Assembly: GCA_016199675.1 (NCBI GenBank)
Contig: JACQGE010000062.1
Location: 1-44,595 of the forward strand
Reading direction: 5' to 3'
DNA: 44,595 nt
Origin: Acidobacteriota bacterium
GTDB taxonomy: Bacteria > Acidobacteriota > Terriglobia > 2-12-FULL-54-10
Shown: piece by piece, positions 14,461 to 38,189 of the stretch
Layout of the letters: each line of letters begins with the position of its first letter
Numbering within the stretch: position 1 is the stretch's first letter
The notes under the pieces: generated by a model
What the model saw: only the letters and a program-made list of their open reading frames with translations
The model's database searches: none
Told to the model about the DNA's origin: nothing
Position numbers and translations under genes: made by a program

Positions 14461-16734
14461 ATGCAGGTTCAGGGTAGGGCAAAAGAACTTTCGATAGTTG
14501 CAGTCTTCGAAATGCTCGGCAAACGCAAGTTTGCCGTAGCAATCACCATGCTGCTGGTAACCGCTGCCTTTATGATTTATGCCTTTGGCCAAGCGGACCG
14601 TTTTCGGGCGGAGGCTCTTCTGGCAGCCGAACCCGCAGTTCCGGAATATGTCAAAAGGGAAACATCCCCTGCTCCGGTCAATATCCAGGAAAAATTGTGG
14701 CTCATCCGCGAACGCTTGCTCAATCCCCCGGTGCTGGAGAGCGTGATTCGAGAATTTGATCTCTACCGCTATCAGCCTCCGCAGACCTTTCTGGAGGACA
14801 TACAGGCTCGGCTTGCGCTTCTGCTGCGAACCGCGGTTCGCGCCCTCCCCGGTCATCAAGAACCCACCGCGCAGGCTCGCCGACAACGCCAAATTGAGGA
14901 CTTGAAGTCAAAGATCTTAATCCAGGTGGAAGCGGCGGACGCCTTCGCCATTGGTTTTGAGGGACAAAACCGGCAACAAGCAATGGATGTGGCCAATCGG
15001 CTTGCCGACATACTGGTTCAGAAAACTTCCGACGCCAGCGAACAAAGTGCGGCTTGGGCGGCGGGCTTTCTCCAAGAAGAAGTAGAGCAGGTCAAACGAA
15101 AACTGGACCAGCAAAATGAGCAGATTCAGCAATATCAATCGCAAGGCGGCGACGTCTCCACCCGCTTGGGGATGGATGTAAAGCTGCTGGAATCGTTCCA
15201 GGAACAACTCCAGCTCAAGACCGAGCGAATTGCCAATGAGCAAGCGCGGCGTTCCGCCGTCTCGCAAGAAATGAAAGAACTGGAGGAGAAGGGGGCGCTG
15301 GAATCGGCGGTGAAGTCGCCGGAGGAGAGAAGGCTCGAAGAACTGCGCACCCGCTTGAAGCAATTGCAAGCAACCTACACGGAACAGTACCCCGAGATGA
15401 GAGCGGTTAAGGCGGAAATTCAGGACCTGGAGCGGGTCGTCGCTGGCAGCAAGACCAAAGGGAAAATTATCGGAGAACCTTCTACAGCCCAACTGCGCTA
15501 TGTGGCCTTGAAGGCGGAATTGGAGGAAATCGATCAACGGCTGCAAAGTTATCGCCAGCAAGAAAAGCAGCTCTCCTCCCAAATTACAGTTTCCATGCGG
15601 AAGGTGGACTCGGCTCCGCAACGCGAAAGAACCCTGGCAGTGCTGGTTCGGGATTATGAATTGACTCGGGAGGAATATCAGGCGCTTCTCGAAAAACAAC
15701 AACAAGCGCAACTAGAGGAACGTTTGAGCAAGGTTAATCAAAGTTCCGATTTTCGAATCGTTCGCCGGGCCCTGTTCCCCTTGGAACCCTCGGCTCCGCA
15801 GCGGGCCAGAATTATCCTGTTGGGGTTGTTCATCGGTCTGGGGCTGGGCTTGGGATTGGCCATCTTCTCTGAATCCCGCGACACCTCTTATGACAGCGCA
15901 GATGATTTTCAGAATTCCACCAATCTGCCGGTTCTGACGGTCATTCCTTCCATTGTTTCGTCGACCCCGGTTAGTACGGTTCCCGTGAGCCGATCTCATA
16001 TGCTGCCGCTAGGGATCAGGACTGTGGAGCAAAACTACGTGGTGGCTTTGAGCGATCCCCGCTCGATTGCCGCCGAGCAATACGGCATCCTGGCGATGGA
16101 GGTTCGCGAGCGGCTGGGGAGAGATTCCTCTAAGGTGGTGGCTGTAACCAGTTCCGCCGGCGGCGAGGGAAAAACCATTACGTCGCTGAATTTGAGCATT
16201 GCGCTTTCACGGACGATGGAAGGAAGAGTTCTGCTTCTCGAATGCGACCTGCGCCGACCTCGCCTCCAGGAGTACGTCGGATTCCGCCCCCAAAAAGGCT
16301 TCAGTGACCTTTTAAAGAAACCGGAGGATTCCATTGAGCCTTATCTTCTGCGAATCAATGGACTTTCTGTCATCCCCGGCGGCCCTGTCCTGGAAGATCC
16401 TTTGCACTTGCTGGCATCGTACCAGACCCAGGCAATTTTTGCTCGCCTCCGTCAGAAATTTGATTTCATCGTCGTGGATACGCCTCCTCTCTTACCCATC
16501 GCCGATACTCGCATTCTGGCGGGTTTGTCCGATGGGGTCGTTCTCGTGGTTCGTGCGCGGCACACTCGCCGTGAGCTTCTCCAGCACGCTCTCCAGAACT
16601 TCCGCGTCTCCAATCTTCTTGGGGTCGTCTTGAACGGCGTGGACATCCAACGCTCCCGTTACTCTTACGCCTACGAGTACTACGCCCATCATTACCTGGC
16701 CGAAGAGAAGGGAAACAAGAGGGCACGGGCATGA
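14461..16734 (+). CDS. Wzc/GumC-type chain-length co-polymerase fused to BY-kinase (757 aa)
   Basis: N-terminal Wzz domain with a first membrane helix (about 20-40) and a long periplasmic coiled coil (about 190-420, EEVEQVKRKLDQQNEQIQ). A second membrane helix (about 447-467) leads to a cytoplasmic tyrosine kinase: Walker A TSSAGGEGKTITSLN (about 562-576), Walker A' LLLECDLRRPR (about 590), Walker B FIVVDTPPLLP (about 668), and a C-terminal Tyr cluster (RSRYSYAYEYYAHHY) that would be autophosphorylated. It controls polymer length and couples to the export protein. Its stop overlaps the next start (ATGA). Confidence 0.93.
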   Translation: MQVQGRAKELSIVAVFEMLGKRKFAVAITMLLVTAAFMIYAFGQADRFRAEALLAAEPAVPEYVKRETSPAPVNIQEKLWLIRERLLNPPVLESVIREFDLYRYQPPQTFLEDIQARLALLLRTAVRALPGHQEPTAQARRQRQIEDLKSKILIQVEAADAFAIGFEGQNRQQAMDVANRLADILVQKTSDASEQSAAWAAGFLQEEVEQVKRKLDQQNEQIQQYQSQGGDVSTRLGMDVKLLESFQEQLQLKTERIANEQARRSAVSQEMKELEEKGALESAVKSPEERRLEELRTRLKQLQATYTEQYPEMRAVKAEIQDLERVVAGSKTKGKIIGEPSTAQLRYVALKAELEEIDQRLQSYRQQEKQLSSQITVSMRKVDSAPQRERTLAVLVRDYELTREEYQALLEKQQQAQLEERLSKVNQSSDFRIVRRALFPLEPSAPQRARIILLGLFIGLGLGLGLAIFSESRDTSYDSADDFQNSTNLPVLTVIPSIVSSTPVSTVPVSRSHMLPLGIRTVEQNYVVALSDPRSIAAEQYGILAMEVRERLGRDSSKVVAVTSSAGGEGKTITSLNLSIALSRTMEGRVLLLECDLRRPRLQEYVGFRPQKGFSDLLKKPEDSIEPYLLRINGLSVIPGGPVLEDPLHLLASYQTQAIFARLRQKFDFIVVDTPPLLPIADTRILAGLSDGVVLVVRARHTRRELLQHALQNFRVSNLLGVVLNGVDIQRSRYSYAYEYYAHHYLAEEKGNKRARA

Positions 16735-18116
16735 TCAGAGTTTGGCACTACTGGATCGCTCGACCGAAGGCTTTCATCATGGCCTCTCATTGCATGCTGA
16801 TGGTCGCTCTCCTTTCCCCTTCTCTCTGGGGCTCGCAAGCGCATTCTCTTTCCGTGGTCCTCCAGAACAACTTGGGGCTAATTCTTCTGCTGGTGGCCCT
16901 TCCCATGTGCTTCTACTTCAACGGATCCGCTACTTTGATTCTGAATCCCAACTTCCGGCTGTTCCTGATCCGGACGGCGAGTTCCGTTGTAATCGGGCTG
17001 CTTTTGATCCTGCCTTTGTTTCTCACATTCCCAAATCTCTTTCCGGGTTATGGATTGGCCGGAGTAGCTGTAATCTTCTCGACGCTCTTGCTTTTTGGAT
17101 TGCGGTCCCTTCTTCATTGGCTGATCGAACGGAGGAAATTTGGTGAAGGTCTGTTGATCTTAGGCAGCGGGGATTTAGCGAAAAAGTTCTATGACGAATT
17201 GGTCAACGGGAAAAACCACCTCGTCAAGGACCCTCCCCACACCATCTCAATCTTCCCAATCAATTCTCTGGAGGGGCCGGATTCAGGAGAAGTGATTAAC
17301 TACGACGAACTGCGCGAGATAACGCGCCGGGACCGGATCTCACGCATTGTAGTGGCAGAAGCAAATGCCCAAAACAGTGAGGGCCTGGCTGTCGCGCTGC
17401 TGGATTGCAAGTTGCGGGGATTGGAAGTGGAACAGGCCATCGAATCCTATGAACAACTCAATGGCAAGATTTGGTTGGAGGCCTTGCGTCCGGAATGGCT
17501 GGTTTATTCCGACGGGTTCAATCCTCCCAAATATTACTTGCCGCTCAAGCGGTTCTTTGAGACCTTTTGCTCGCTCCTGTTAGTTGTTCTGGCCGCGCCT
17601 TTATTCGCGCTGATCGCCATCCTCATCAAATTGGATTCCAAGGGCCCTGTTCTTTTCCGGCAGGTGCGAGTTGGTCTCCACGGCAGGGATTTTGTTCTGC
17701 TCAAGTTCCGCACCATGCGCCAGGACGCGGAGCAGGAAACGGGACCCGTGTGGGCCTGCGAACAAGACAAGAGGGTCACAAGGGTTGGCAAGTTTTTGCG
17801 CCAGTACCGCCTGGATGAATTGCCGCAAGCCTTCAACGTGCTGCGGGGTGAGATGAGCCTGGTGGGACCGCGCCCCGAGAGACCCTATTTTGTGGAATTG
17901 CTGCGCCAGCGGGTTCCCTACTATCGTCTCCGTCATTACGTGAAGCCGGGCATCACCGGTTGGGCGCAAGTGTTGTATCCCTACGGGGCTTCGGTCGAGG
18001 ACGCTTACGAAAAGCTGCAATACGACCTGTATTACGCCAAGCACATGTCGCTGGGTTTTGATCTGCGGATCCTGCTCAACACCGTTAGGATCGTGCTTTT
18101 CGGGCGGGGTCGTTAA
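16731..18116 (+). CDS. Initiating polyprenyl phosphoglycosyltransferase, XrtA-locus type (461 aa)
   Basis: Four to five N-terminal membrane helices (about 15-125) and a Rossmann-like central region (LLILGSGDLAKKFYDEL) precede the catalytic bacterial sugar transferase domain (about 265-460). That domain has KRFFETFCSLLLVVLAA, LDSKGPVLFRQ, LLKFRTMR, RLDELPQAFNVLRGEMSLVG and PGITGWAQVLYPYGA. The enzyme moves a sugar-1-phosphate from a nucleotide sugar to undecaprenyl phosphate at the inner membrane, starting the repeat unit. The PYGASVEDAYEKLQYDLYY stretch resembles the family typical of XrtA/PEP-CTERM loci. The sugar cannot be deduced. It overlaps the co-polymerase gene by 4 nt. Confidence 0.9.
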   Translation: MIRVWHYWIARPKAFIMASHCMLMVALLSPSLWGSQAHSLSVVLQNNLGLILLLVALPMCFYFNGSATLILNPNFRLFLIRTASSVVIGLLLILPLFLTFPNLFPGYGLAGVAVIFSTLLLFGLRSLLHWLIERRKFGEGLLILGSGDLAKKFYDELVNGKNHLVKDPPHTISIFPINSLEGPDSGEVINYDELREITRRDRISRIVVAEANAQNSEGLAVALLDCKLRGLEVEQAIESYEQLNGKIWLEALRPEWLVYSDGFNPPKYYLPLKRFFETFCSLLLVVLAAPLFALIAILIKLDSKGPVLFRQVRVGLHGRDFVLLKFRTMRQDAEQETGPVWACEQDKRVTRVGKFLRQYRLDELPQAFNVLRGEMSLVGPRPERPYFVELLRQRVPYYRLRHYVKPGITGWAQVLYPYGASVEDAYEKLQYDLYYAKHMSLGFDLRILLNTVRIVLFGRGR

Positions 18117-18128
18117 GGGGGGACCCAT

Positions 18129-19187
18129 ATGGTGAATTTAGTGGGTATCGGAGGCGGGACGGGCCTGCCAGTGTTATTGCGGGGCCTGCGGCAATTCTCT
18201 GAAGGTTTGGAACCGAGCGCGCAGAATCCCGTGCATATCTCTGCCATTGTCTGTGTCTCTGACAATGGCGGTTCCAGCGGCTCTTTGCGCCATCACTTCG
18301 GCATTCCGGCCGTCGGCGATTTGCGGAACTGCCTGGTCGCCCTGTCTGATGGCGACTCCTTACTAGCCGATCTCTTTCAATATCGTTTCTCTGGCGGCAA
18401 TGGATTGAACGGACATGCTCTGGGGAACTTGATCGTCACCGCCTTTTGCCAGATGTCAGGAAGTCTGGGAGGGGCGGTCGAGTTGTCAAAAGAAGTCCTT
18501 CGCTCTCAGGGATGTGTGTTCCCTGTTACAGAAATCGCGTCGTCCCTCTGTGCCGAATTCGAATCCGGCGATCAGATTCGCGGCGAATCAGAAATCACGG
18601 CGGCGCGAGGCAGAATCGCAAGGGTCTGGTTGGAACCGGGCAATCCTCCCCCCTCCTGCGGAGTCCTCCAGACCCTTGACGATGCCGATGCCATCATCCT
18701 GGGACCAGGAAGTCTTTATACCAGCATCATCCCCAATCTGCTCGTCGCTGGCGTGGCTGAAGCGGTGCGAAACTCGCCCGCCCTGAAGATTTTCGTCTGT
18801 AACTTGGTAACCCAGCCGGGAGAGACAGACGGATTTACCGCCGCAGACCATCTGCGCGCCCTGGAAACCTACCTGGGCGCCGGTGTGATAGATGTTTGTG
18901 TTCTGAATTCGCAACCCATCGCACGAACCGTCGAAGAAAAGTATCTCGAAACCGGATCGGAACCGGTGCGTTGGAGCAAGGATGAAATTGCTCGAATGGG
19001 TGTCGTGCCAGCCATCGCGGATCTTTTGGAGGAAAGCCAAACGAAAGTCCGACATGATCCGATCCGGTTGGCTCGCTCGATTCTGTCCTTTACCTGGGTG
19101 TTCAGCCCGCGCGCGAAATTCTTTCCGGGCGAGAAAGCCGGATTGCCGGAGCGGGGGACGTTATGTGCGGAATTGTTAGGTATCTAG
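18129..19187 (+). CDS. yvcK: YvcK/GlmR-family protein, CofD-like fold, probable UDP-sugar sensor (352 aa)
   Basis: The N-terminus carries the family signature GIGGGTGLPVLLRGL and later VCVSDNGGSSGSLRHHFGIPAVGDLRNCLVAL, split by short loops, with GNGLNGHALGNLIV and ILGPGSLYTSIIPNLLV further on. This is the YvcK family, related to CofD. Bacillus GlmR (YvcK) binds UDP-GlcNAc and stimulates GlmS. Such a gene is normally part of central cell-wall metabolism, not an exopolysaccharide operon. Here it starts 12 nt after the initiating transferase, and a GlmS remnant overlaps its 3' end, followed by the UDP-sugar dehydrogenase. A role in matching UDP-GlcNAc supply to polymer synthesis is an inference. 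Confidence 0.9.
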   Translation: MVNLVGIGGGTGLPVLLRGLRQFSEGLEPSAQNPVHISAIVCVSDNGGSSGSLRHHFGIPAVGDLRNCLVALSDGDSLLADLFQYRFSGGNGLNGHALGNLIVTAFCQMSGSLGGAVELSKEVLRSQGCVFPVTEIASSLCAEFESGDQIRGESEITAARGRIARVWLEPGNPPPSCGVLQTLDDADAIILGPGSLYTSIIPNLLVAGVAEAVRNSPALKIFVCNLVTQPGETDGFTAADHLRALETYLGAGVIDVCVLNSQPIARTVEEKYLETGSEPVRWSKDEIARMGVVPAIADLLEESQTKVRHDPIRLARSILSFTWVFSPRAKFFPGEKAGLPERGTLCAELLGI

Positions 19188-19246
19188 GCGGGCAAGATGG
19201 CAGTGGCTCGACGCTCAACTTGGCCAAGACCATAACGGTGGAGTAG
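19163..19246 (+). pseudogene. glmS: Internally deleted glmS remnant (27 codons)
   Basis: An ATG with a purine-rich ribosome-binding site (GGGGGACG) inside the 3' end of yvcK opens a short frame. It begins MCGIVRYLGG, the start of glucosamine-6-phosphate synthase, which has Cys2 as the glutaminase nucleophile. It ends LNLAKTITVE followed by stop; a C-terminus NLAK(S/T)(V/I)TVE is characteristic of GlmS. Between these only about seven codons remain of a protein normally near 600 residues. The simplest reading is an in-frame internal deletion joining both ends. The family is argued from two short motifs, so other readings remain possible, but both ends matching one family in the right order is hard to obtain by chance. 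Confidence 0.7.
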
Positions 19247-19254
19247 GAGGTTCT

Positions 19255-20601
19255 ATGAGCATTTCAGAAATCGCAACAGTCCCGGTTAGCGTCCCCGATG
19301 CTTGCCAGGCGTTGGAACACAAAATCCGCACGCGCGAGGCTCAATTGGGCGTCATCGGCCTGGGCTACGTGGGCTTGCCGCTGGCTCTGACATTTGGTCG
19401 CGCAGGCTTCGCCGTTACAGGTTTTGATCTGGATTCCAAGAAGATTGCCGCCTTGTCGGCCGGGCAGTCTTACATTACTGACGTCCCGGATGCCGAGGTC
19501 GCATCCGCCATTGGAGAGCGCCATCTGGTTCCCACTACGGATTTCGATCAAATTGCCAAGTTGGATGCGATGAGCATTTGCGTGCCCACGCCTTTGCGGA
19601 AAACAAAAGACCCCGACCTGTCCTACATCATGGCAGCGATTGAGGCAGTTGCCCAGCGGTTGCGTCCGGGCCAGCTCATTGTCTTGGAAAGCACCACCTA
19701 TCCTGGAACCACGGAGGAATTGGTGCTCCCCCGACTGGAAGAGACTGGCTGGCGCGTGGGTGAGGATTTCTTCCTGGCCTTTTCTCCGGAACGGGTTGAT
19801 CCTGGCAATAAAAACTATTCCACTCGGGATATTCCCAAAGTGGTTGGAGGAACAACCCCACGCTGTTCGCAACTGGCCGCTCTCCTTTACGGGCAGTGCG
19901 TGAAGCAGGTCCATGCGGTTTCCTCGACCCGCGTTGCGGAAATGGTCAAGCTCCTGGAGAACACCTTCCGCAGTGTGAATATTGCGCTCGCCAACGAAAT
20001 AGCGCTCATGTGCGCGCACACGGGCATTGACGTTTGGGAAGTTATTCAAGCGGCGGCCACGAAGCCTTTTGGGTTCATGCCGTTTTATCCAGGTCCCGGC
20101 CTCGGCGGGCATTGCATTCCGATTGACCCGATCTATTTGCTCTGGAAGGCGCGGGCGGATGGCTTCCCGTTGCGTTTTATTGATCTGGCGGACGAGATCA
20201 ATAGCAGCATGCCCCGCATGGTGGCGATCCGCGCTATGGAATTGCTGAACCAGCAAGGGAAACCCTTCAAGGGTGCGCGCGTGCATATTCTGGGAGTTAC
20301 CTACAAGCGCGACATCGGCGATACGCGCGAGTCTCCGGCCTTGGAGATCATGAAACTCTCCTTGGCGGCGGGCGCTCTGGTTTCCTACAGCGATCCACTG
20401 GTGCCGAGCTTGGCGCTGGAAGGGCGAGAGTTCCAATCGCTCCCCGTAACACCCGAGGTCTTGCGCGGTTGCGACTTGGCCATCATCGTGACGGATCATG
20501 CCCAGTTCGATGTCCCGTGCATCGTGAAGAATACGCCGTTGGTCTTCGACACCCGCAACGCCACGAACGGCTTGCGCGCGGAGAATGTAGTCCGGCTTTA
20601 G
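19255..20601 (+). CDS. wbpA: Nucleotide-sugar 6-dehydrogenase, WbpA-like (probably UDP-GlcNAc) (448 aa)
   Basis: Two Rossmann-type domains. NAD-binding motif GVIGLGYVGLPLALTFGRAG is at about residues 33-52. The catalytic Cys287 lies in GPGLGGHCIPIDPIYL, and the C-terminal UDP-binding domain contains ILGVTYKRDIGDTRESPALEI. The enzyme oxidises C6 of a UDP-sugar to the uronate in two NAD-dependent steps. The stretch FGFMPFYPGPGLGGHCIPID resembles WbpA-type UDP-N-acetylglucosamine dehydrogenases more than UDP-glucose ones; substrate is inferred. It starts 8 nt after the glmS remnant with GGAGG upstream. Confidence 0.9.
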   Translation: MSISEIATVPVSVPDACQALEHKIRTREAQLGVIGLGYVGLPLALTFGRAGFAVTGFDLDSKKIAALSAGQSYITDVPDAEVASAIGERHLVPTTDFDQIAKLDAMSICVPTPLRKTKDPDLSYIMAAIEAVAQRLRPGQLIVLESTTYPGTTEELVLPRLEETGWRVGEDFFLAFSPERVDPGNKNYSTRDIPKVVGGTTPRCSQLAALLYGQCVKQVHAVSSTRVAEMVKLLENTFRSVNIALANEIALMCAHTGIDVWEVIQAAATKPFGFMPFYPGPGLGGHCIPIDPIYLLWKARADGFPLRFIDLADEINSSMPRMVAIRAMELLNQQGKPFKGARVHILGVTYKRDIGDTRESPALEIMKLSLAAGALVSYSDPLVPSLALEGREFQSLPVTPEVLRGCDLAIIVTDHAQFDVPCIVKNTPLVFDTRNATNGLRAENVVRL

Positions 20602-20650
20602 GAGTTGCGTCGTGAGACAGAGAAGCAGCTATTGCTGCTGGGAGTAAACC

Positions 20651-21718
20651 ATGGCGGAGGCGATTTTCTGGATTTCCTTTGTGACTGTCTTTTATGTCTA
20701 CTGCGGATACCCGCTGCTGCTGTTGCTCTGGCGATGGATGATCCGGAAGCCTGTCTATAAGGCCGATTGGGAACCCTTCGTCAGCGTGGTCATTGCCGCT
20801 CACAATGAAAGAGAACATCTGGATGCGAAAATCCGTAACTGTCTCGAACTGGATTATCCTCGCGACAAACTGGAGATTATCGTTTCCCTCGATGGGCCGA
20901 CGGACGGGACGGAGGATGTGGCGCGCCGCTACGAGGGAAAGGAAGTCACTGTCATCCACCGGCCCGTTCACGCGGGCAAGGCAGCCGCCTTGAATCGTGC
21001 TTTGGCCGCCGCGCGAGGGGAAGTGATCGTGTTCGCCGATGCAAGGCAGCAGATCAATCCTCCCGCCGTACGAGAGTTGGTGGCTGCTCTTCATGATCCT
21101 TCGGTAGGGGTTGTTTCCGGGGAACTGATTCTGCTGGATGGAACATCTCAAGGAGCTGGTGAAGCCAGCGATGCTGTCGGCATGTATTGGCGTTACGAAA
21201 AGTGGATCCGGGCCATGGAAAGCGACATCCATTCCGTCGTCGGCGCCACGGGAGCGTTGTACGCCATCCGGCGCGAGTTCTTCACGCCTCTGCCCGACCA
21301 CACGATTCTCGATGATGTCCTGATCCCCATGCGCATTGTGCTCCTCGGAAAACGGGTCGTTTTTGAACCGTCGGCCAGAGCCTATGACCTCGTAGCGTGC
21401 TGCCCGGAAGTGGAGTTTGGAAGAAAGGTCCGAACGTTGGCAGGAAACTATCAGCTTCTCACCCAGTTGCCGGAACTCTTGTTTCCTTGGAGAAATCCCG
21501 TTTTCTTGCAGTTCGTATCGCACAAGGTCGGCAGGCTTCTGGTTCCTTACTTCCTGGCAGCACTATTCCTGGCCAATTGTTTTTTGCTGCAAGGTTTCTA
21601 TCTGGTCCTGTTTGGACTGCAAGTCGCATGGTACTTGTCGGCTTTTGCAGGGCGGCTCGCTCTTCAAAGCCGCAGCATGAACCATGTGGCCAAACCGTTT
21701 GTATTCGGCCATCGCTAG
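20651..21718 (+). CDS. Membrane-anchored GT2-family glycosyltransferase, C-terminus probably frameshifted (355 aa)
   Basis: N-terminal membrane helix (about 5-28), then a GT-A catalytic domain: FVSVVIAAHNERE (about 43-55), VSLDGPTDGT, HAGKAAALNRAL, the DxD-like FADAR, and the acceptor-site LDDVLIPMR. The region normally holding QxxRW reads GRKVRTLAGNYQLL. Two further membrane helices follow (about 300-345). It probably transfers a UDP-linked hexose to the lipid-linked oligosaccharide on the cytoplasmic face. The frame stops at 21718, while sequence resembling the last membrane segment of this family continues in another frame (21729-21926), so a frameshift near 21690-21720 is suspected. Confidence 0.82.
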   Translation: MAEAIFWISFVTVFYVYCGYPLLLLLWRWMIRKPVYKADWEPFVSVVIAAHNEREHLDAKIRNCLELDYPRDKLEIIVSLDGPTDGTEDVARRYEGKEVTVIHRPVHAGKAAALNRALAAARGEVIVFADARQQINPPAVRELVAALHDPSVGVVSGELILLDGTSQGAGEASDAVGMYWRYEKWIRAMESDIHSVVGATGALYAIRREFFTPLPDHTILDDVLIPMRIVLLGKRVVFEPSARAYDLVACCPEVEFGRKVRTLAGNYQLLTQLPELLFPWRNPVFLQFVSHKVGRLLVPYFLAALFLANCFLLQGFYLVLFGLQVAWYLSAFAGRLALQSRSMNHVAKPFVFGHR

Positions 21719-21728
21719 AGGGTTTTTT

Positions 21729-21926
21729 ATGAAGAACGCATTACGCATACCGTATGCCTTCGTACTGATGAATTGGGCAGCCGTCGTCAGCCTCTATTAT
21801 TTCCTCCGGCGAGGGAATGACATTGGGCAGGATATCTGGACAATGCCTTTTCACACGCATACTCATTCGGAGCCGCCCCAAGGAGAGGACAAACCGCTAT
21901 GGACTGCAGTGAGACAGTTGAACTGA
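21729..21926 (+). pseudogene. Displaced C-terminal membrane segment of the GT2 glycosyltransferase
   Basis: This 65-codon frame contains LRIPYAFVLMNWAAVVSLYY, which looks like the final membrane helix of GT2 synthases (a MNWAA or NxAA-type segment followed by FLRG-like residues). It lies one frame off the GT2 gene, beginning just after its stop. An ATG at 21729 with AGAGGG before it could start it as a separate small membrane protein. It overlaps the next gene by 28 nt. I favour a frameshifted continuation of the GT2 gene, real or from assembly; an independent small gene is the alternative. Confidence 0.5.
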
Positions 21927-23116
21927 TCGACAATCCCACTGCCGAATCAGAGCTGAGCATCGAGATCATCTCTGACTCTGATTCCCTTATCGGGATGGAA
22001 TCTCTCTGGAATCGCTTGCTGGACGAAGCCGGGATTGATTACCCCTTCCTGACTCACCAATGGGTCCGCACCTGGTGGGAGTGTTTTGGTGCGGGGAAAA
22101 AACTGCATGTCCTTTTAGTGAAAGACGGAGACGAAGTCATCGCTATTGCTCCCTTGATGCTGACGCGGCGGAAGTTTTATGGCCTGCCGCTGCGCTGCCT
22201 GGAGTTCATCGCCAACGTCCATACCCCGCGTTTCGATTTCATCGTCACACGTCGCCCCGCGGAAGCTTATCGCGCCATTTGGGCTTCCTTGACGGAGCAG
22301 AGAAGGCTTTGGGACGTGCTGTTGCTGTGTCAGGTCCCCTCAGATTCTCGAACTCGGGAGGAAATAGCCAGGCTGGCCGCACAGGAAAATTTACATTACG
22401 GGCAGTGGTGTTCTGCCCATTCTCCCTATTTGACGGTGCAGGGAACCTGGGAAAACTATTTCAAACAACTTCACTCCAAGCATCGGGCCAATGTCCGCAG
22501 AAGGCTGAAGCGCCTTTCCGAACTCGGAGAGGTGGAAATGGAGCGGATATCTTCGGAACAGCCATTAGAAAGCGCGTTGGAGGAGGGGTTTCGGATCGAA
22601 GGAGCTGCCTGGAAGGATCGCAACGGCACCTCCATCCACGCCCAACCCGAGTCTCGCTTTTTTTATACCAAGCTGGGGCAAAGATTCCTCCGGCAGGGTT
22701 GGCTGCAGTTGTGCTTCCTGACCGTTGGTGGCCGACGAGTCGCCTTTCATTATTCTCTGGGCTACAACAATAAGGTCTATTTGCTCAAGCCGGGCTACGA
22801 CCCCGAACATGCCGCCTGTTCTCCGGTTAATCTGCTCTGTTTCCTGTTTCTGCAAAAGGCTTTTGACAACGGTTTGGGCGAGTTCGATTTTCTCGGCGTG
22901 GATGACGAATGGAAATTGCAGTGGACCCGAATGACCCGGAGTCATTATTGGGTCTATGTTTTTTCCAGAGCTCCTTTAGCCTCACTGGTCCATCTGGCCA
23001 AGTTCCGTCTAATCCCCGGTCTCCAGCAAAAGCGGGTCTATCAAGTCTTGCGCGACAGGATCGTGAGTTTGTGGCGGAGTGCCCGGCCCGCAAAAGAAAC
23101 CGCTCTCTCAGAATAG
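21899..23116 (+). CDS. CelD/FemAB-like GNAT acyltransferase 1 (405 aa)
   Basis: Two-lobed GNAT-type fold. The N-terminal lobe has YPFLTHQWVRTWWECFG (a motif common to CelD/FemAB-like proteins) and VIAIAPLMLTRR. The C-terminal lobe has HRANVRRRLKRL, RQGWLQLCFLTVGGRRVAF, HYSLGYNNKVYLLKPGYDPE and FDFLGVDDEWKLQW. Relatives in exopolysaccharide loci are thought to transfer an acyl or aminoacyl group to a sugar amine, but substrates are mostly unproven. AAGGAG lies upstream of the ATG. A second, divergent member of the same family is at 24295-25506, with a DegT-like gene between. Confidence 0.82.
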   Translation: MDCSETVELIDNPTAESELSIEIISDSDSLIGMESLWNRLLDEAGIDYPFLTHQWVRTWWECFGAGKKLHVLLVKDGDEVIAIAPLMLTRRKFYGLPLRCLEFIANVHTPRFDFIVTRRPAEAYRAIWASLTEQRRLWDVLLLCQVPSDSRTREEIARLAAQENLHYGQWCSAHSPYLTVQGTWENYFKQLHSKHRANVRRRLKRLSELGEVEMERISSEQPLESALEEGFRIEGAAWKDRNGTSIHAQPESRFFYTKLGQRFLRQGWLQLCFLTVGGRRVAFHYSLGYNNKVYLLKPGYDPEHAACSPVNLLCFLFLQKAFDNGLGEFDFLGVDDEWKLQWTRMTRSHYWVYVFSRAPLASLVHLAKFRLIPGLQQKRVYQVLRDRIVSLWRSARPAKETALSE

Positions 23117-27873: not shown

Positions 27874-29432
27874 TTACTTTGCTGCGCGAAACAGACGACA
27901 CCGGTTCGATCTTCAAGCCAACGCTGGTCTTGATGTCCGGACGGATGCTTTCCTTTATCGCCACCTTTTTCATACCGGTGGTGCTAGTTCGCCTCTTCGC
28001 GCCCGGTGAATTCGGCACTTACAAACAGGCGTTTTTGATTTACATGACCGTATATGGCATCGCCCAACTCGGAATGGCTGAAAGCCTGTTTTATTTCCTT
28101 CCGCGCGCCCCCAAGAAGGCCGGGCGCTACGCCATGAACTCATTGCTGATGTTGCTGGCCGCAGCGGTTTTGTTCTCGGGATTGCTGATGGAGGAAAAGT
28201 CTAGGATTTCCGAATGGCTCAGCAATAGCGGTCTGGCGCAGTATCTCCCTCTCCTGGCAGTGTACCTGCTCCTGATGACGATGTCCGCGACCCTGGAGAT
28301 TGTCATGATCTCGCGGAAACAGTATCGCCGGGCAGCGCTTTCCTATGCCGTTTCGGACGTGCTACGCGCGGCGTTCCTGATCGTTCCGGCGGTGCTTTTG
28401 CGCAGTCTTTATGGCCTGTTTCTGGGGGCGGTGGCTTTCGCTCTGCTCCGGTTCGTGATCACCCTTTTCTATTTCTGGCGAGAGTTCGGCGATGAGTTCC
28501 GGCCGGACGTTCGCTTGTTGCAACAACAACTTGCTTACGCCTTGCCTTTTGAAATGGCGATCGTGGTGGAGACGCTGCATATGAATTTTCACCAATATGC
28601 GGTCTCCCACTACTTCGACGCGGCTACTTTTGCGATCTATGCCGTAGGTTGCCTCCAGATACCCCTGGTGGAATTTCTGGCTTCTCCGGCCGGCAACGTC
28701 ATGATGGTGCGAATGAGCGAGGAAATCCGGGATGGTCGGAACGATTCCGTCGTTGCTCTCTGGCATGAGACGACCCGCAAACTCGCTTTGATCTTCATTC
28801 CCCTGTTCGGCCTTCTCGTGGTCACGGCGCGGGACCTCATTGTTTTTCTCTTCACGGAAAGCTATGTGGCGAGCGTTTCCATTTTTATGGTCTGGTCATT
28901 GACTGTCCTTCTTTCAGCGTTTCAAACGGACGCCGCCCTGCGCGTCTATGCGCAAACCCGTTTCCTTTTTATGCTGCATCTCCTCCGTCTGTTAATCATT
29001 GTCGGGCTGATTTCGGTTTTTCTCTCCGGCTTCGGCCTCCTCGGCGCCGTTCTGATCACACTCCTGTCGCTGGCCATCGCCAAGGCGCTATCTCTATTCC
29101 GATTGAAACAATTGATGCAGATTAGCATCGCTCAGCTTTTGCCTTGGGGGAGCCTGGCCGCTGTGGGAGCGGTATCGCTTGCCGCATTCCTAATCGCCCA
29201 GTCAGTCGAATCCACATTAGGGTTCTCCGTCATGCTTCGCCTGTTGGTCGTTGGGCTTGTTTATATGGTTTCTTATCTTGTCTTGCTGATGCGCTTTGAC
29301 CTGTTGAATAGCCGCGAGAAGTCGGGAATCGCGATCTGGCTACAAAGATTTACTGTGGAAAAAAGTCCTAAGAAAAAAGTCCGAGAGCAGTTGGAGGAAG
29401 AAAAACCATGTGCGGTATCGTCGGAATCCTAA
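27870..29432 (+). CDS. Wzx-type polysaccharide flippase (520 aa)
   Basis: Polytopic membrane protein (about 12-14 helices) of the polysaccharide-transport family. It starts VITLLRETDDTGSIFKPTLV and has conserved RLFAPGEFGTYKQAFLIY at the end of the first helix pair. It should flip the lipid-linked oligosaccharide to the periplasm. GTG at 27870 is chosen because it overlaps the preceding stop (GTGA) and has AGAGG at 8 nt; an upstream in-frame start at 27753 would put most of the ligase coding region in the leader. A basic tail (KKKVREQLEEEKP) overlaps the asnB-like gene by 25 nt. Confidence 0.87.
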   Translation: MITLLRETDDTGSIFKPTLVLMSGRMLSFIATFFIPVVLVRLFAPGEFGTYKQAFLIYMTVYGIAQLGMAESLFYFLPRAPKKAGRYAMNSLLMLLAAAVLFSGLLMEEKSRISEWLSNSGLAQYLPLLAVYLLLMTMSATLEIVMISRKQYRRAALSYAVSDVLRAAFLIVPAVLLRSLYGLFLGAVAFALLRFVITLFYFWREFGDEFRPDVRLLQQQLAYALPFEMAIVVETLHMNFHQYAVSHYFDAATFAIYAVGCLQIPLVEFLASPAGNVMMVRMSEEIRDGRNDSVVALWHETTRKLALIFIPLFGLLVVTARDLIVFLFTESYVASVSIFMVWSLTVLLSAFQTDAALRVYAQTRFLFMLHLLRLLIIVGLISVFLSGFGLLGAVLITLLSLAIAKALSLFRLKQLMQISIAQLLPWGSLAAVGAVSLAAFLIAQSVESTLGFSVMLRLLVVGLVYMVSYLVLLMRFDLLNSREKSGIAIWLQRFTVEKSPKKKVREQLEEEKPCAVSSES

Positions 29433-31333
29433 GTTTAGAAAAGAAGCCGGTTTACCTGGAAGAACTGCGTTGGATGTCTGCTGCCATCGCGCACCGCGGC
29501 CCCGATGAAGATGGATTTTATCTGGGGAAGATGGCTGGCCTGGGCATGCGCCGCCTCAGCATTATTGACCTCAAAACGGGCCGCCAGCCCATTTCCAGCG
29601 AAGACGGCACCGTTTGGGTCGTGTTCAACGGCGAAATCTACAACTACAAGCAATTGCGCCGGAAGCTGGAGCAAAAGGGCCACTGCTTTTCGACAACCAC
29701 GGATACGGAGACCATTGTCCATCTCTACGAGGAATACGGCGAGCGCTGCGTCGAGGAAATGCGGGGTATGTTTGCCTTTGCCGTCTGGGATGAACGCCGC
29801 CGCAAGCTTCTGATCGCCCGCGACCGGCTCGGAATAAAACCCTTATATTACGCCGAGGTCAACGGAAGACTGGTTTTCGCCTCCGAATTAAAGGCGATTC
29901 TCCAACTGCCGGAGGTGGAACGCACGCTCAACTGGAAGGCGCTCAACCGCCTCTTTACGTTTTTGTGCACTCCGGCTTCCGAAAGCATCGTGCAAGGAAT
30001 CCACAAACTGGAACCGGGGCATACCCTCGTGACGTCGCCCGGCCAAAAACCCTCCATCCGGTGCTACTGGGATGTCCATTTCCAGCCGGACCCCCGTTTG
30101 ACCGAAGAGCGTTGCACAGAACAGTTGCGGGAGTTGCTGGAAGAATCCGTCCAGTTGCACATGGTCAGCGATGTGCCGGTGGGGGCTTTTCTGAGCGGCG
30201 GCATAGACTCCAGCGCCGTCGTGGCGACCATGGCTCGTCTCACTCCCGACCGCGTCCGAACTTTTTCTATCGGCTTCCCCGAGGACGATTACAACGAACT
30301 CCAGTTCGCGCGCACGATAGCGAAGAAGTTTGGCACGCAGCATCACGAACTCCTGCTCGAACCGAATGTGTTCGAGATCATGGAAGACCTGGCCTGGCAT
30401 CTGGACGAACCCTTTGGCGATTCCTCGGCGATTCCCACCTTTATGGTTTCGAAACTGGCTTCTCAATACGTGAAAGTTGTGCTTTCCGGAGACGGCGGCG
30501 ACGAACTATTCGCTGGATACGACAAATACGCGGTGGAAGACAGAGAACGAAACAGGCTCTTGCCGGCTGCGGTTCGCAAACTCCTCGGCAGCCTGGGGAG
30601 AATGATTCCGGAAGGAGTCCGGGGCCGGAATCTGCTGCGCCATCTGTCGCTGACCGGAGCGGAACGCTATCTGGATGCTTCGACTTTATTCCGGAGCGAA
30701 GAAAAGACAAAACTTCTTCAGGATGACGCCCTCGAGACCCTTTCCGCTCACGACCCCTGGCAGCGGGAGATCCAGCATATGGCTCAGGCCAATGGCAATT
30801 GGCTTTCGACGTTGCAATATCTGGATCATAAGAGCTATCTCCCGTTGGATATTCTGACCAAAGTGGATCGCATGAGCATGGCGCATTCCCTCGAAGTTCG
30901 CGTCCCGCTGCTCGACCACAAGCTCGTGGAATTCGCCGCAACGATTCCTCCAGAGCTGAAGTTGCATCACGGCACCAGAAAATACATTTTCAAGCAGGCC
31001 CTGCGCGGAATCTTGCCGGCGGAAATCATTCAGAAACCGAAGCAGGGTTTCGCCATCCCGCTCGCCCGCTGGTTCCGGGGAAAGCTGGACGGCTTTGTCC
31101 GGGAGCTTTTGCTTTCGGAGAAAACTCGTCAGCGGGGGATACTTCGTCCCCGCTACGTTGAGCGCCTTCTGGAACTTCATAAGAAGGGGAAAGACCTCGA
31201 TTTGCAACTGTGGACCCTCATTTCTTTCGAGATGTGGTGCAGGACCTTTCTGGATGGGAGAGTCAGTGAAACCTGCGAGTGCGAAACGGAAAACGATCCA
31301 TCTCAGTTAGTGCTCCAGGCGCCGGTGAAGTAG
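29408..31333 (+). CDS. asnB: Asparagine synthase-like amidotransferase 1 (641 aa)
   Basis: Class II glutamine amidotransferase: Cys2 is the nucleophile (MCGIVGIL), with AHRGPDEDG, MRRLSIIDL and FNGEIYNY in the glutaminase domain. The synthetase domain begins near residue 240 and has the PP-loop SGGIDSS (263-269), LDEPFGDSSAIPT and LSGDGGDELFAGYD. Full length and all key motifs argue for an active enzyme. In polysaccharide loci such genes may amidate uronic acids rather than make asparagine, which fits the UDP-uronate enzyme upstream. GGAGGAAG precedes the ATG. A second, distinct copy lies at 36249. Confidence 0.9.
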   Translation: MCGIVGILSLEKKPVYLEELRWMSAAIAHRGPDEDGFYLGKMAGLGMRRLSIIDLKTGRQPISSEDGTVWVVFNGEIYNYKQLRRKLEQKGHCFSTTTDTETIVHLYEEYGERCVEEMRGMFAFAVWDERRRKLLIARDRLGIKPLYYAEVNGRLVFASELKAILQLPEVERTLNWKALNRLFTFLCTPASESIVQGIHKLEPGHTLVTSPGQKPSIRCYWDVHFQPDPRLTEERCTEQLRELLEESVQLHMVSDVPVGAFLSGGIDSSAVVATMARLTPDRVRTFSIGFPEDDYNELQFARTIAKKFGTQHHELLLEPNVFEIMEDLAWHLDEPFGDSSAIPTFMVSKLASQYVKVVLSGDGGDELFAGYDKYAVEDRERNRLLPAAVRKLLGSLGRMIPEGVRGRNLLRHLSLTGAERYLDASTLFRSEEKTKLLQDDALETLSAHDPWQREIQHMAQANGNWLSTLQYLDHKSYLPLDILTKVDRMSMAHSLEVRVPLLDHKLVEFAATIPPELKLHHGTRKYIFKQALRGILPAEIIQKPKQGFAIPLARWFRGKLDGFVRELLLSEKTRQRGILRPRYVERLLELHKKGKDLDLQLWTLISFEMWCRTFLDGRVSETCECETENDPSQLVLQAPVK

Positions 31334-33848: not shown

Positions 33849-36274
33849 AAAAGCTGCGCGGGATGCCTGCGAATGAGATGGCTTACCGCATACGCGACAG
33901 ACTCCGATGTGAGACAGACCGGCTCCGATTCCACTGGAACGGCGTCGGGACGCCTGAGGAGAGTTTCTCCGATAAACATGGTTTTTCTTTCAAGCAGTAC
34001 CTCCAGGAAGGCCCTGCACAGCGATTTTACCTTCCAGCTATCCCGGAAGAACGAGAAGGACTGAAAGAATTCGCAAATACATATTTCCCGGAATGGAGGG
34101 AAAAAGCAGTCGAAGAGGCCGAACGCCTCCGCCAGCATCGAGTGGAGCTTCTCGGCTATGGAGAGATCGAGTTGGGCCGGGACATTGATTGGCATCAAGA
34201 CCCCATTACCGGGCAAATCTGGCCGCGCCGCTATTGGGCGGATTACGATTTGGTTCGTGATGCCGGCGCGGGCGACCCCAAGGTGATTCATGAGCTCAAC
34301 CGGCACCAGCATCTTCCCAGATTGGCTAAAGCCTATTTCCTGACCGGGGAGGAAAAATATGCCCGTGAAGCAATAGAGCAAATCAAAACTTGGATCGCTC
34401 AAAACCCGCCGGGCAGCGGCATCAACTGGCACTCTAGCCTGGAAATCTCCCTTCGGGTCCTCTCCTGGCTGTGGACCCTTTTCTTTATTTTGCCGGCGGA
34501 ATCTTTTGACGAAGATGCAGCGCTGTCTATCGGCGGTTCGTTGTTGGCTCAATTAGATCACGTCCACCGTTATCCTTCGGTTTTCAGCAGCCCCAACACA
34601 CACCTGATTGGAGAAGCTACGGCTCTTTTCATCGGGGGACTGATTTTCTCGGAGTGTAAACACGCTCCTGCCTGGCAGAAGCAGGGCGCTTCCCTGCTGA
34701 TCGCGGAGATGAAGAAGCAGATTCTCCGAGAGGGAATCCACGGCGAACTCTCTTCCTATTATCACTGTTACACCTTGGACTTTTATCTTCAGGCCTTAAT
34801 CTTGGCGAGCCGCAATCGGTTCTCTTTTCCAAATCGGGTTTGGAGGCGATCGAGTCGGATGCTGGATTTCCTGATGCATCTTACCAGACCCGATGGATCC
34901 ATTCCTCTGCTGGGGGATGACGATGGCGGCCGCGCGCTGGCCCTTAACCAGACGAACTACCGTTCTTTCCGCGATGGCCTTTGCACGGGAGCAGTCCTGT
35001 TTCACCGGCCGGACTATAAGCATCAGGCGGGTGAGTTTTGCGAAGAGACATTCTGGATGCTGGGCGAACCGGCTTGGCAGACCTACCTGTTTTTGGAGAA
35101 AACTCCTCCGCTGGAATCGAGCGCTTCTTTTCCCGCTGCGGGTTATTTTATCCAGCGCTCGGATTGGAGTAACCTTGCCAGCCATTTGATATTCGATTGT
35201 GGCGGCATAGGAATCATCAACGGTGGCCATGGTCATGCAGACTCCCTCTCCGTTGTTCTCTCTGCCGGTGGCAAGGAATTATTAGTGGATCCGGGCACCT
35301 ATACCTACAACACAGCTCCGGAATGGCGCAATTTCTTTCGTTCCACAGTGGCTCATAACACGGCCCTTGTGGATGGGCAGGATCAGTCGGAAGCGGGGGA
35401 GACTTTTCGTTGGCGTCAGGTGGCCCAGTCACGGCGTGTGAAACAACTCGCGGATGCCGGGATCGAGTATATCGAGGGCGAACACAATGGTTATGAACGG
35501 CTCCCCCAGCAGGTAGTCCACCGGCGGCGACTGCTTTATTGCAAGCCGGATTACTGGATGGTTATAGATGATTTCCGGGGAGAAGGGAAACACAACTTCG
35601 ATCTTTACTATCACTTCAGTCCGGATGCGAAGCTGTCGTTTGATGGTTCCGACCGGCTGAAGCCGGGAATGGAAATTCGTGCCCTCGTCCCCGGTGCCGG
35701 CCTCCGACTCTTTCTTTGCGCCTCGGTTCCCTTGAAAGCCGAAATCGTTAGCGGTCAAAGCACTCCCATTCAAGGATGGGTATCGAGCCGCTATGGAAAA
35801 AAAAAGCCGGCGCTTACTTTGCGGGTCAGTTTTTGTTCCCCAGTGCCTGCCGCCATCGTCTCCATCCTTGTGCCCTTCGTGGCAGATTCCGGCTCCCCGG
35901 CAAGCTGGCAAGATCAGAAGAGCTGCGAAATCTCCGGACTGAAAGCGTGTGAGCAAGCCATTGCCTGCACTGTGAAAAACCAAAGCCGAAACGACCTAAT
36001 GGTCTTTTCACTCCGGGATTCCGAACTGGAAGTCAGCGATTGCAAAATGCGCGGCGAATTGTTTTGGCTCCACACCGACCGCGATATCCTCAAACAATTT
36101 TTCGCGCTCAACGCCCATAGTTTGGAATACAACGGACAAACTGTCTTTCAAAACAGCGATCCAATGGATTTTGTGTGGCACGAGATTTGCGAGGAAACCG
36201 AGGCGGCCAATGTCGAACCGGCCGAACTGGAAATGGGGGAAATGGTTTATGTGCGGGATATGCGGAATTGTTAA
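33821..36274 (+). CDS. Heparinase II/III-family alginate-lyase-like protein (817 aa)
   Basis: An N-terminal alpha/alpha-toroid region (about 60-420, with DIDWHQDP, NRHQHLPRLAKAYFLTG, NWHSSLEISLRVLSW and SSPNTHLIGEATALFIGGL) precedes a beta-sandwich (about 440-700) with the family motif GGHGHADSLSVVLSAGGKEL followed by LVDPGTYTYN. Such enzymes cleave uronic-acid-containing polysaccharides by beta-elimination, fitting the uronate dehydrogenase upstream; a role in trimming the polymer is inferred. No clear signal peptide is seen, which is unusual and may mean a cytoplasmic or unrecognised export route. The ribosome-binding site lies in the repeat copy 4 region. It overlaps asnB 2 by 26 nt. Confidence 0.83.
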   Translation: MVERTLEKLKKLRGMPANEMAYRIRDRLRCETDRLRFHWNGVGTPEESFSDKHGFSFKQYLQEGPAQRFYLPAIPEEREGLKEFANTYFPEWREKAVEEAERLRQHRVELLGYGEIELGRDIDWHQDPITGQIWPRRYWADYDLVRDAGAGDPKVIHELNRHQHLPRLAKAYFLTGEEKYAREAIEQIKTWIAQNPPGSGINWHSSLEISLRVLSWLWTLFFILPAESFDEDAALSIGGSLLAQLDHVHRYPSVFSSPNTHLIGEATALFIGGLIFSECKHAPAWQKQGASLLIAEMKKQILREGIHGELSSYYHCYTLDFYLQALILASRNRFSFPNRVWRRSSRMLDFLMHLTRPDGSIPLLGDDDGGRALALNQTNYRSFRDGLCTGAVLFHRPDYKHQAGEFCEETFWMLGEPAWQTYLFLEKTPPLESSASFPAAGYFIQRSDWSNLASHLIFDCGGIGIINGGHGHADSLSVVLSAGGKELLVDPGTYTYNTAPEWRNFFRSTVAHNTALVDGQDQSEAGETFRWRQVAQSRRVKQLADAGIEYIEGEHNGYERLPQQVVHRRRLLYCKPDYWMVIDDFRGEGKHNFDLYYHFSPDAKLSFDGSDRLKPGMEIRALVPGAGLRLFLCASVPLKAEIVSGQSTPIQGWVSSRYGKKKPALTLRVSFCSPVPAAIVSILVPFVADSGSPASWQDQKSCEISGLKACEQAIACTVKNQSRNDLMVFSLRDSELEVSDCKMRGELFWLHTDRDILKQFFALNAHSLEYNGQTVFQNSDPMDFVWHEICEETEAANVEPAELEMGEMVYVRDMRNC

Positions 36275-38189
36275 TTTCGACAAAGAGGAACGGATAGACG
36301 CCGAACTCCTTGAAAGGATGACGAACACTCTCGCTCATCGCGGTCCTGACGACGCCGGATACTTCCTCGACGGCAACGTCGGTCTGGGACACCGCCGCCT
36401 GAGCATCATTGACCTGAGCGGAGGCAAACAACCCATCTTCAATGAAGACGGCTCCGCAGTGATTGTCTTCAATGGCGAAATCTATAATTACGCCGATCTC
36501 ACACCACCACTTGTATCCCAGGGACACACCTTTCGAACCCGTTGCGACACAGAAGTGATTCTTCATTCCTACGAACAATACGGCAGCCAATGTGTGCAGC
36601 AACTCCGTGGCATGTTTGCTTTCGCCATTTGGGATCGCCACAATGAGCAACTTTTTCTGGCCCGAGATCGATTGGGAGTCAAGCCAATATATTTTTATCA
36701 GGGAGCGGGCTTTTTTGCATTTGCGTCGGAAATAAAAGCGTTGCTGGAGTTGCCTTCCGCTCGGTGCGCACTGGACCCGGAAGCTTTCGATCTGTACCTA
36801 TCCTTGCGCTACGTTCCTGGGCCACGGACTATGTTCCAGGGGATCTATAAGTTACAGCCGGGGCACTTTCTACTTTTCAACAGGAGCGGAGTTCGTATTC
36901 AAAGATACTGGGATGTCCCCTACGATCCGCATCCCCGGCCGCGCGCCTGGTCGGATACGGTCGAGGAGTTCGAACAACTACTGGAGGAGAGCGTCCGGCT
37001 GAGATTGATGGCGGAGGTGCCGCTGGGGGTATTCCTGAGCGGCGGGCTGGACTCCAGCACGATCCTGGCGGTCATGAGCAAGATCACGCAGGGTGAAAGG
37101 ATCAAGACGTTCAGCGTGGGTTATGGAGGAGGCGCCGCCGAGGAGAAATCCAATGAATTTTATTACGCAAATCTCGCCGCAACAGCTTTTCGCGCCGAAC
37201 ACCATGAATTCCGGGTGAATGCCCAGGACTTCGCCGATTTCATTCCGGAGTTGGTGTGGCATCTGGATGAACCCCTGGCCGATCCAAGCTGCATCCCGCT
37301 CTACTTCATTTCCAAGCTAGCTCGGAATTACATCACGGTCGTGTTGTCCGGTGAAGGGGCCGACGAACTCTTGGGTGGCTACTACATCTATCGAAAAATG
37401 CTGGCGCTAGAACGGATTTATCGTTCCTTCGCTCCGCTGCCAGCGTTGCTAGCTCCCCGTCTGGCGCATCTGATGCCGGGAGAGGCGCGCCGAAGCTATT
37501 TGAAAATGGCGGGACTGCCCCTCGAAAGTCGATACAAAGGTGTGTCGAGAGGATTCCGACCGGAACTGAAAGGGCGGCTATTATCGGACGGCAAAGCCAG
37601 GGATCCGGAAGAAAAGCTCCGCGAGCATTTTCTCCCTTACTTCCGACAGGTGGAGGGACGTTCTCCTTTGGACCGTATGCTTTATGCGGACACTAAAATC
37701 TGGCTTCCAGACGATATCTTGTTAAAAGCCGACAAAATGACGATGGCCAATGCCTTAGAGTTGCGAGTCCCCTTTTTGGATCACAAGCTCGTAGAGTTTT
37801 GCGCCGGGCTGCCGACAAAGTTCAAGCTCCACGGCTTCCAGGATAAGTTCCTCTTACGCCAAGCGATGGGCAAAGTGCTTCCAAAACCCATTTTGGAACG
37901 CCCCAAGAAGGGATTTCCGGTGCCCACGGGGGAATGGCTTCGAATCCCGATGAGAGAGTTCGCGCACGATGTCCTGCTGTCTCCGAATTCGGCCTGCCGG
38001 ACTTACTTGAATTCTTCGGTCCTCGAAGGGATGGTCTTAGAGCATGAGAACGGGAGGGTGAACCGGGAACAGGAAATTTGGACTTTGCTGATCTTTGAAT
38101 TCTGGCACCGCCTGTTCCTGGAAAACAAACACAGACCCGCGGGGAGGGAAATGCATACCGTGGCCAAGGAGGTTATAGAATGCGTGTGA
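36249..38189 (+). CDS. asnB: Asparagine synthase-like amidotransferase 2 (646 aa)
   Basis: Glutaminase domain with Cys2 (MCGICGIVNF), AHRGPDDAGYFL, GHRRLSIIDLSGGKQPIFNE and FNGEIYNY. The synthetase domain has the PP-loop SGGLDSS (264-270) and LDEPLADPSCIPLYF, then LSGEGADELLGGYY. It resembles the amidotransferase type found in XrtA/PEP-CTERM loci more than copy 1 does, by motif only. Copy 1 at 29408 is clearly a different paralogue (SGGIDSS, GDGGDELFAG). ATG 36249 is taken because it is the true amidotransferase N-terminus; an upstream in-frame extension is rejected. It overlaps the heparinase gene by 26 nt and the next gene by 10 nt. Confidence 0.88.
   Translation: MCGICGIVNFDKEERIDAELLERMTNTLAHRGPDDAGYFLDGNVGLGHRRLSIIDLSGGKQPIFNEDGSAVIVFNGEIYNYADLTPPLVSQGHTFRTRCDTEVILHSYEQYGSQCVQQLRGMFAFAIWDRHNEQLFLARDRLGVKPIYFYQGAGFFAFASEIKALLELPSARCALDPEAFDLYLSLRYVPGPRTMFQGIYKLQPGHFLLFNRSGVRIQRYWDVPYDPHPRPRAWSDTVEEFEQLLEESVRLRLMAEVPLGVFLSGGLDSSTILAVMSKITQGERIKTFSVGYGGGAAEEKSNEFYYANLAATAFRAEHHEFRVNAQDFADFIPELVWHLDEPLADPSCIPLYFISKLARNYITVVLSGEGADELLGGYYIYRKMLALERIYRSFAPLPALLAPRLAHLMPGEARRSYLKMAGLPLESRYKGVSRGFRPELKGRLLSDGKARDPEEKLREHFLPYFRQVEGRSPLDRMLYADTKIWLPDDILLKADKMTMANALELRVPFLDHKLVEFCAGLPTKFKLHGFQDKFLLRQAMGKVLPKPILERPKKGFPVPTGEWLRIPMREFAHDVLLSPNSACRTYLNSSVLEGMVLEHENGRVNREQEIWTLLIFEFWHRLFLENKHRPAGREMHTVAKEVIECV

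Follow-up and report, generated by a model that had tools for sequence, protein, structure and literature searches.

A frame of only 27 codons that begins and ends like GlmS, with next to nothing in between, lies between a yvcK/glmR-type gene and a nucleotide-sugar dehydrogenase gene (udg) in a polysaccharide cluster of an Acidobacteriota bacterium, which raises the question of what this frame is and how it came about. The window, i.e. the whole stretch of 44,595 nt that was analysed, is contig C33 of the genome here called G000, a fragmented 2.5-Mb assembly (198 contigs, 87% complete). The surroundings of the frame comprise the following features:

14461..16734, plus strand: polysaccharide chain-length determinant/tyrosine autokinase-like protein (Pfam, NCBIfam)
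16731..18116, plus strand: exopolysaccharide polyprenyl glycosylphosphotransferase of the XrtA/PEP-CTERM type, TIGR03013, upstream (NCBIfam)
18129..19187, plus strand: yvcK/glmR-type protein, CofD family, cluster paralogue (Pfam PF01933 and NCBIfam TIGR01826, both over cut-off)
19163..19246, plus strand: glmS remnant, mini-ORF of 27 codons, MCGIVRYLGGQDGSGSTLNLAKTITVE-stop (translation, profile score, full glmS at this position in G003, G008 and G072)
19163..19187, plus strand: 5' remnant, glmS ATG through yvcK stop codon TAG, overlapping the yvcK end
19220..19246, plus strand: 3' remnant (LAKTITVE-stop), running into the dehydrogenase Shine-Dalgarno
19244..19250, plus strand: dehydrogenase Shine-Dalgarno (TAGGAGG, -10.9 kcal/mol), overlapping the stop codon of the remnant
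19255..20601, plus strand: nucleotide-sugar dehydrogenase (udg), TIGR03026 family (Pfam, NCBIfam)
20651..21718, plus strand: family 2 glycosyltransferase, downstream (Pfam, NCBIfam)

G000 carries a second yvcK (C104:2473-3489) that is 46% identical to the cluster yvcK at 18129-19187. The same polysaccharide cluster includes two asparagine-synthase-like (asnB-like) amidotransferase genes (29408-31333 and 36171-38189); both have their best match in TIGR03108 but stay below its cut-off, and both are over the cut-off of TIGR01536.

The mini-ORF starts 25 nt upstream of the yvcK end (stop codon TAG at 19185-19187) and its own stop is followed by the dehydrogenase ATG after 8 nt. A first-pass annotation had noted a frame with a GlmS start and a GlmS end at 19163-19246, which proved exact, separated by about seven further codons, which need not be assumed: the GlmS start (MCGIVRYLGGQDG vs MCGIVGYIGWREP) can account for 13 of the 27 codons and the GlmS end (SGSTLNLAKTITVE vs VDKPRNLAKSVTVE) for the other 14. 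Profiles of the two GlmS ends (13 N-terminal and 14 C-terminal residues) gave the mini-ORF 23.6 bits (N 18.5, C 5.1). When the window was shuffled 60 times with its dinucleotides preserved and the best frame of 27-60 codons was taken each time, the maxima were -18.1 (sum), 8.8 (N) and -9.5 (C). Both ends thus match GlmS better than chance would give, as is asked of a gene remnant. A degenerate pattern of a GlmS start close to a GlmS end matched only the window and contig C157 of genome G002 among 399 genomes of the class, and the reversed pattern, used as a control on the same 399 genomes, was absent among the matches listed. The shuffles and the class-wide search rule out a chance resemblance. 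As a functional gene (GlmS, TIGR01135) the frame does not qualify, with about 13 + 14 of about 609 codons left and neither the glutaminase nor the isomerase domain present. Neither a glmS ribozyme nor any other Rfam element was matched at E ≤ 1 within 16000-22000. The start might conceivably derive from another amidotransferase beginning with MCGI-, such as asparagine synthase or PurF, with the end arising by chance, and the asnB-like genes at 29408 and 36171 do carry related N-terminal domains; NLAKxxTVE-stop is however the GlmS end and relatives have a full glmS at this exact site, which leaves such an origin a negligible probability, and we rejected it.

The order yvcK-glmS-dehydrogenase, suggested at first as the ancestral one, was found with a full-length glmS in three genomes: G003, which belongs to the same family, G008 and G072. 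The G003 cluster is collinear with the window, and its glmS of 609 codons (G003:C15:49526-51355) has an ATG that is preceded by the yvcK stop. G060 and G015 also have a full glmS behind yvcK, and no dehydrogenase was found there between glmS and the glycosyltransferase. In G092 (C102, 4471-4540) the glycosyltransferase directly follows yvcK, glmS and dehydrogenase both being absent there, and this part of the cluster therefore varies between genomes. G275 (C12) has an unrelated repeat-protein gene between yvcK and the glycosyltransferase in place of glmS and the dehydrogenase; read by eye, its DNA resembles that of an NHL-repeat-like secreted protein. A GlmS tree, which leaves out the G044 and G010 rows, grouped the cluster GlmS of G003, G008, G072, G060 and G015 in one clade against the housekeeping GlmS (support 100/100).

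The search for a glmS elsewhere in G000 was likewise successful. A housekeeping copy is located on contig C46 (C46:1-1650), sister to the housekeeping gene of G002 (99/88), and in each of these two genomes the housekeeping-type glmS lies beside an orotate-phosphoribosyltransferase-like gene. Because contig C46 ends there, the G000 copy is cut at its N-terminus and starts at about residue 71; the missing ~70 residues were not found elsewhere in the G000 assembly. The rest of G000 and G002 yielded no glmS of the cluster type, although, with these genomes 87-88% complete, a moved copy retains some probability. As G000 keeps its housekeeping glmS, it is the cluster paralogue that was lost. Two further marks of a gene remnant are thus present: relatives have the full gene at this position, and its function is covered elsewhere (C46).

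The other pattern match, in G002, is a second remnant. G002 is the nearest relative among the genomes compared and belongs to another genus (C157 is MEKX01000157 of Acidobacteria bacterium RIFCSPLOWO2_12_FULL_54_10). Its cluster is collinear with that of G000, with proteins about 47-82% identical (yvcK 70%, dehydrogenase 82%), and between yvcK and the dehydrogenase it carries ATGTGCGGAATTGTCCGCTATCTAGACTGGCGAATAGCGTAACGGTGGAAAAGGAGG, i.e. the GlmS start followed by the GlmS end out of frame and with the stop lost. The mini-frame has 13 codons here and ends 19 nt before the dehydrogenase ATG, while the distance from the yvcK stop to the udg ATG has shrunk to 36 nt, G000 keeping 31 nt more. Common to both remnants are the odd residues R6 and L8 and a yvcK stop inside TATCTAG; position 6 is Gly in all full-length GlmS N-termini among the sequences listed. 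Since the C-terminal piece is out of frame in G002, the whole 27-residue peptide is not conserved, and with the frame not kept to its stop the locus is no conserved small protein gene; the suggestion in the first-pass annotation that the peptide is still made is weakened by this, whereas its other suggestion, a preserved translation-coupling context, may hold. The same annotation held that relatives with the short frame and no full glmS would speak against a deleted gene. G002 is formally such a relative, yet it does not refute the deletion, because the full gene is present in other relatives and has been lost in G002 as well. A further concern, that a misassembly hides an intact glmS, could draw on the fragmentation of G000 and on the contig end cutting its other glmS copy, but it is very improbable: a remnant with shared substitutions occupies this site in another, diverged assembly too, and the C46 copy falls in the housekeeping clade and has no nucleotide match to the window.

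Homology at both ends, the full gene at the site in relatives, the second remnant and the housekeeping copy are direct observations, and the identification of 19163-19246 as a real glmS remnant, left by an ordinary kind of gene loss, is well supported. In our reading it is very probably what remains of a second glmS, specific to the cluster, whose place was between the yvcK and dehydrogenase genes of an exopolysaccharide operon of the XrtA type and whose body was deleted. The spare cluster glmS would have been made dispensable by the housekeeping GlmS elsewhere in the genome, and a deletion of about 580 codons would have removed the gene body, from about 609 codons to 27. We propose that the ends were kept because parts of the neighbouring genes lie in them. 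The left limit would be set by the yvcK frame, which in this lineage extends 25 nt into glmS with its TAG across codons 8-9, and the right limit by the last glmS codons, which merge into the dehydrogenase Shine-Dalgarno; deletions reaching further either way would presumably damage a gene still in use, and the G002 remnant appears close to both limits. The exact deletion joint and repeats at it were sought but could not be placed because the middle of the remnant is too diverged; TGGC is present near both deletion edges in G002, which proves nothing.

Regarding the conservation of the ends, the neighbouring genes are intact in G000 and G002 (dN/dS about 0.20/1.2 for yvcK and about 0.11/1.2 for udg) and silent changes between the two genomes approach saturation (dS about 1.2). 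The cluster YvcK thus appears, as an average since the split, to be under purifying selection between two genomes without an adjacent glmS. The 25-nt segment that opens with the glmS ATG and closes with the yvcK stop has 22/25 identical positions, as opposed to 70/122 in the adjoining yvcK tail (Fisher p = 0.003). All three differences are silent in the glmS frame, an outcome expected for about 0.8% of random three-change variants; both figures are post hoc, calculated after seeing the alignment, and refer to one genome pair. MCGIVRYL is identical in the two genera, and the 5' end may therefore be something other than a dead remnant, being more conserved than the yvcK tail alone needs. The 3' remnant, with 4 amino-acid changes in 7 differences, is decaying. 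The 5' conservation with silent-only changes points either to a recent loss, perhaps twice, or to a start site that was useful after the loss.

Two independent recent deletions of a glmS still working at the G000/G002 split would keep the remnant reading but give it a different history. The 5' end has evolved like that of a functional glmS (0-4 differences, all silent, among the full copies), the ends have diverged far less than neutral saturation would give, and the deletions differ in extent between the two genomes. Against this history, R6 is common to both remnants where the full-length GlmS N-termini among the sequences listed have Gly, and a single 31-nt deletion would suffice to turn a G000-like remnant into that of G002. 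We regard two deletions as a real possibility, though not the probable one, and slightly favour a loss that would have begun before G000 and G002 separated; remnants are known from these two genomes only, and the two may be non-independent.

If instead the start site was useful after the loss, the glmS start may survive as a short leader that is translated: ribosomes that terminate at the yvcK stop would reinitiate at the glmS ATG, terminate again shortly ahead of the dehydrogenase gene and be loaded there (translational coupling), and the peptide itself may not matter. This would refine the remnant reading rather than replace it. Consistent with a leader are the MCGIVRYL start, the same in two genera with three silent differences despite a dS of about 1.2, the 5' segment more conserved than the yvcK tail, and mini-frames whose ends lie close to the dehydrogenase ATG, at 8 nt in G000 and 19 nt in G002. 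Functional glmS pairs, however, show the same silent-only pattern, and a recent loss therefore explains the 5' conservation equally well. The ribosome-binding signals also argue against a leader. The mini-ORF does have its own ribosome-binding site, as first noted, but GGGGGA pairs only modestly with the anti-SD (-8.6 kcal/mol; 5% of random 18-mers reach -7.6 and 1% reach -9.9). In four genomes with a full glmS the Shine-Dalgarno of the glmS start reaches -10.9 to -12.5, compared with the weaker -8.6 and -9.5 of the two remnants, whereas the dehydrogenase gene has its own, strong Shine-Dalgarno (-10.9, -11.6 in the remnant genomes vs -6.8, -6.8, -6.5 in three with full glmS), a comparison of small numbers in which the two remnants are possibly non-independent. 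The stronger signal looks as if the dehydrogenase gene now recruits its own ribosomes. We therefore consider a kept leader unlikely, and slightly more doubtful still that the start site outlived the gutted glmS with its first codons selected as a tiny translated leader passing ribosomes from yvcK to the dehydrogenase; if true, a lost enzyme gene would have turned into a translation-coupling element.

The glmS remnant resembles other gene remnants formed by internal deletion in an operon in that the body is lost and the ends are kept, the neighbours are intact and selected, and an intact paralogue exists elsewhere; it illustrates how overlapping neighbours may act as limits of deletion in an operon. 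It differs from an ordinary operon pseudogene in the frame, which is kept in G000, and in the start region, which shows coding-type conservation between two genera. Compared with the G003 glmS (G003:C15:49526-51355) it occupies the same site between yvcK and the dehydrogenase with matching first and last codons, but has 27 codons instead of 609 and lacks the glutaminase and isomerase domains. In Bacillus subtilis GlmS is directly stimulated by GlmR (YvcK), which is prevented by UDP-GlcNAc (PMC7525490). A TIGR01826 protein is encoded beside a GlmS in the relatives of G000, and the yvcK-glmS pairing in these clusters would fit the GlmR-GlmS link of B. subtilis. The locus would thus capture the loss of a GlmS partner adjoining its likely regulator, and it raises the testable question whether the cluster YvcK, which outlives the adjacent glmS in two genera, acts on the housekeeping GlmS or has another role. 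In contrast to B. subtilis, both members of the pair are second, cluster-borne copies in polysaccharide operons of Acidobacteriota, and here the GlmS partner has been lost.
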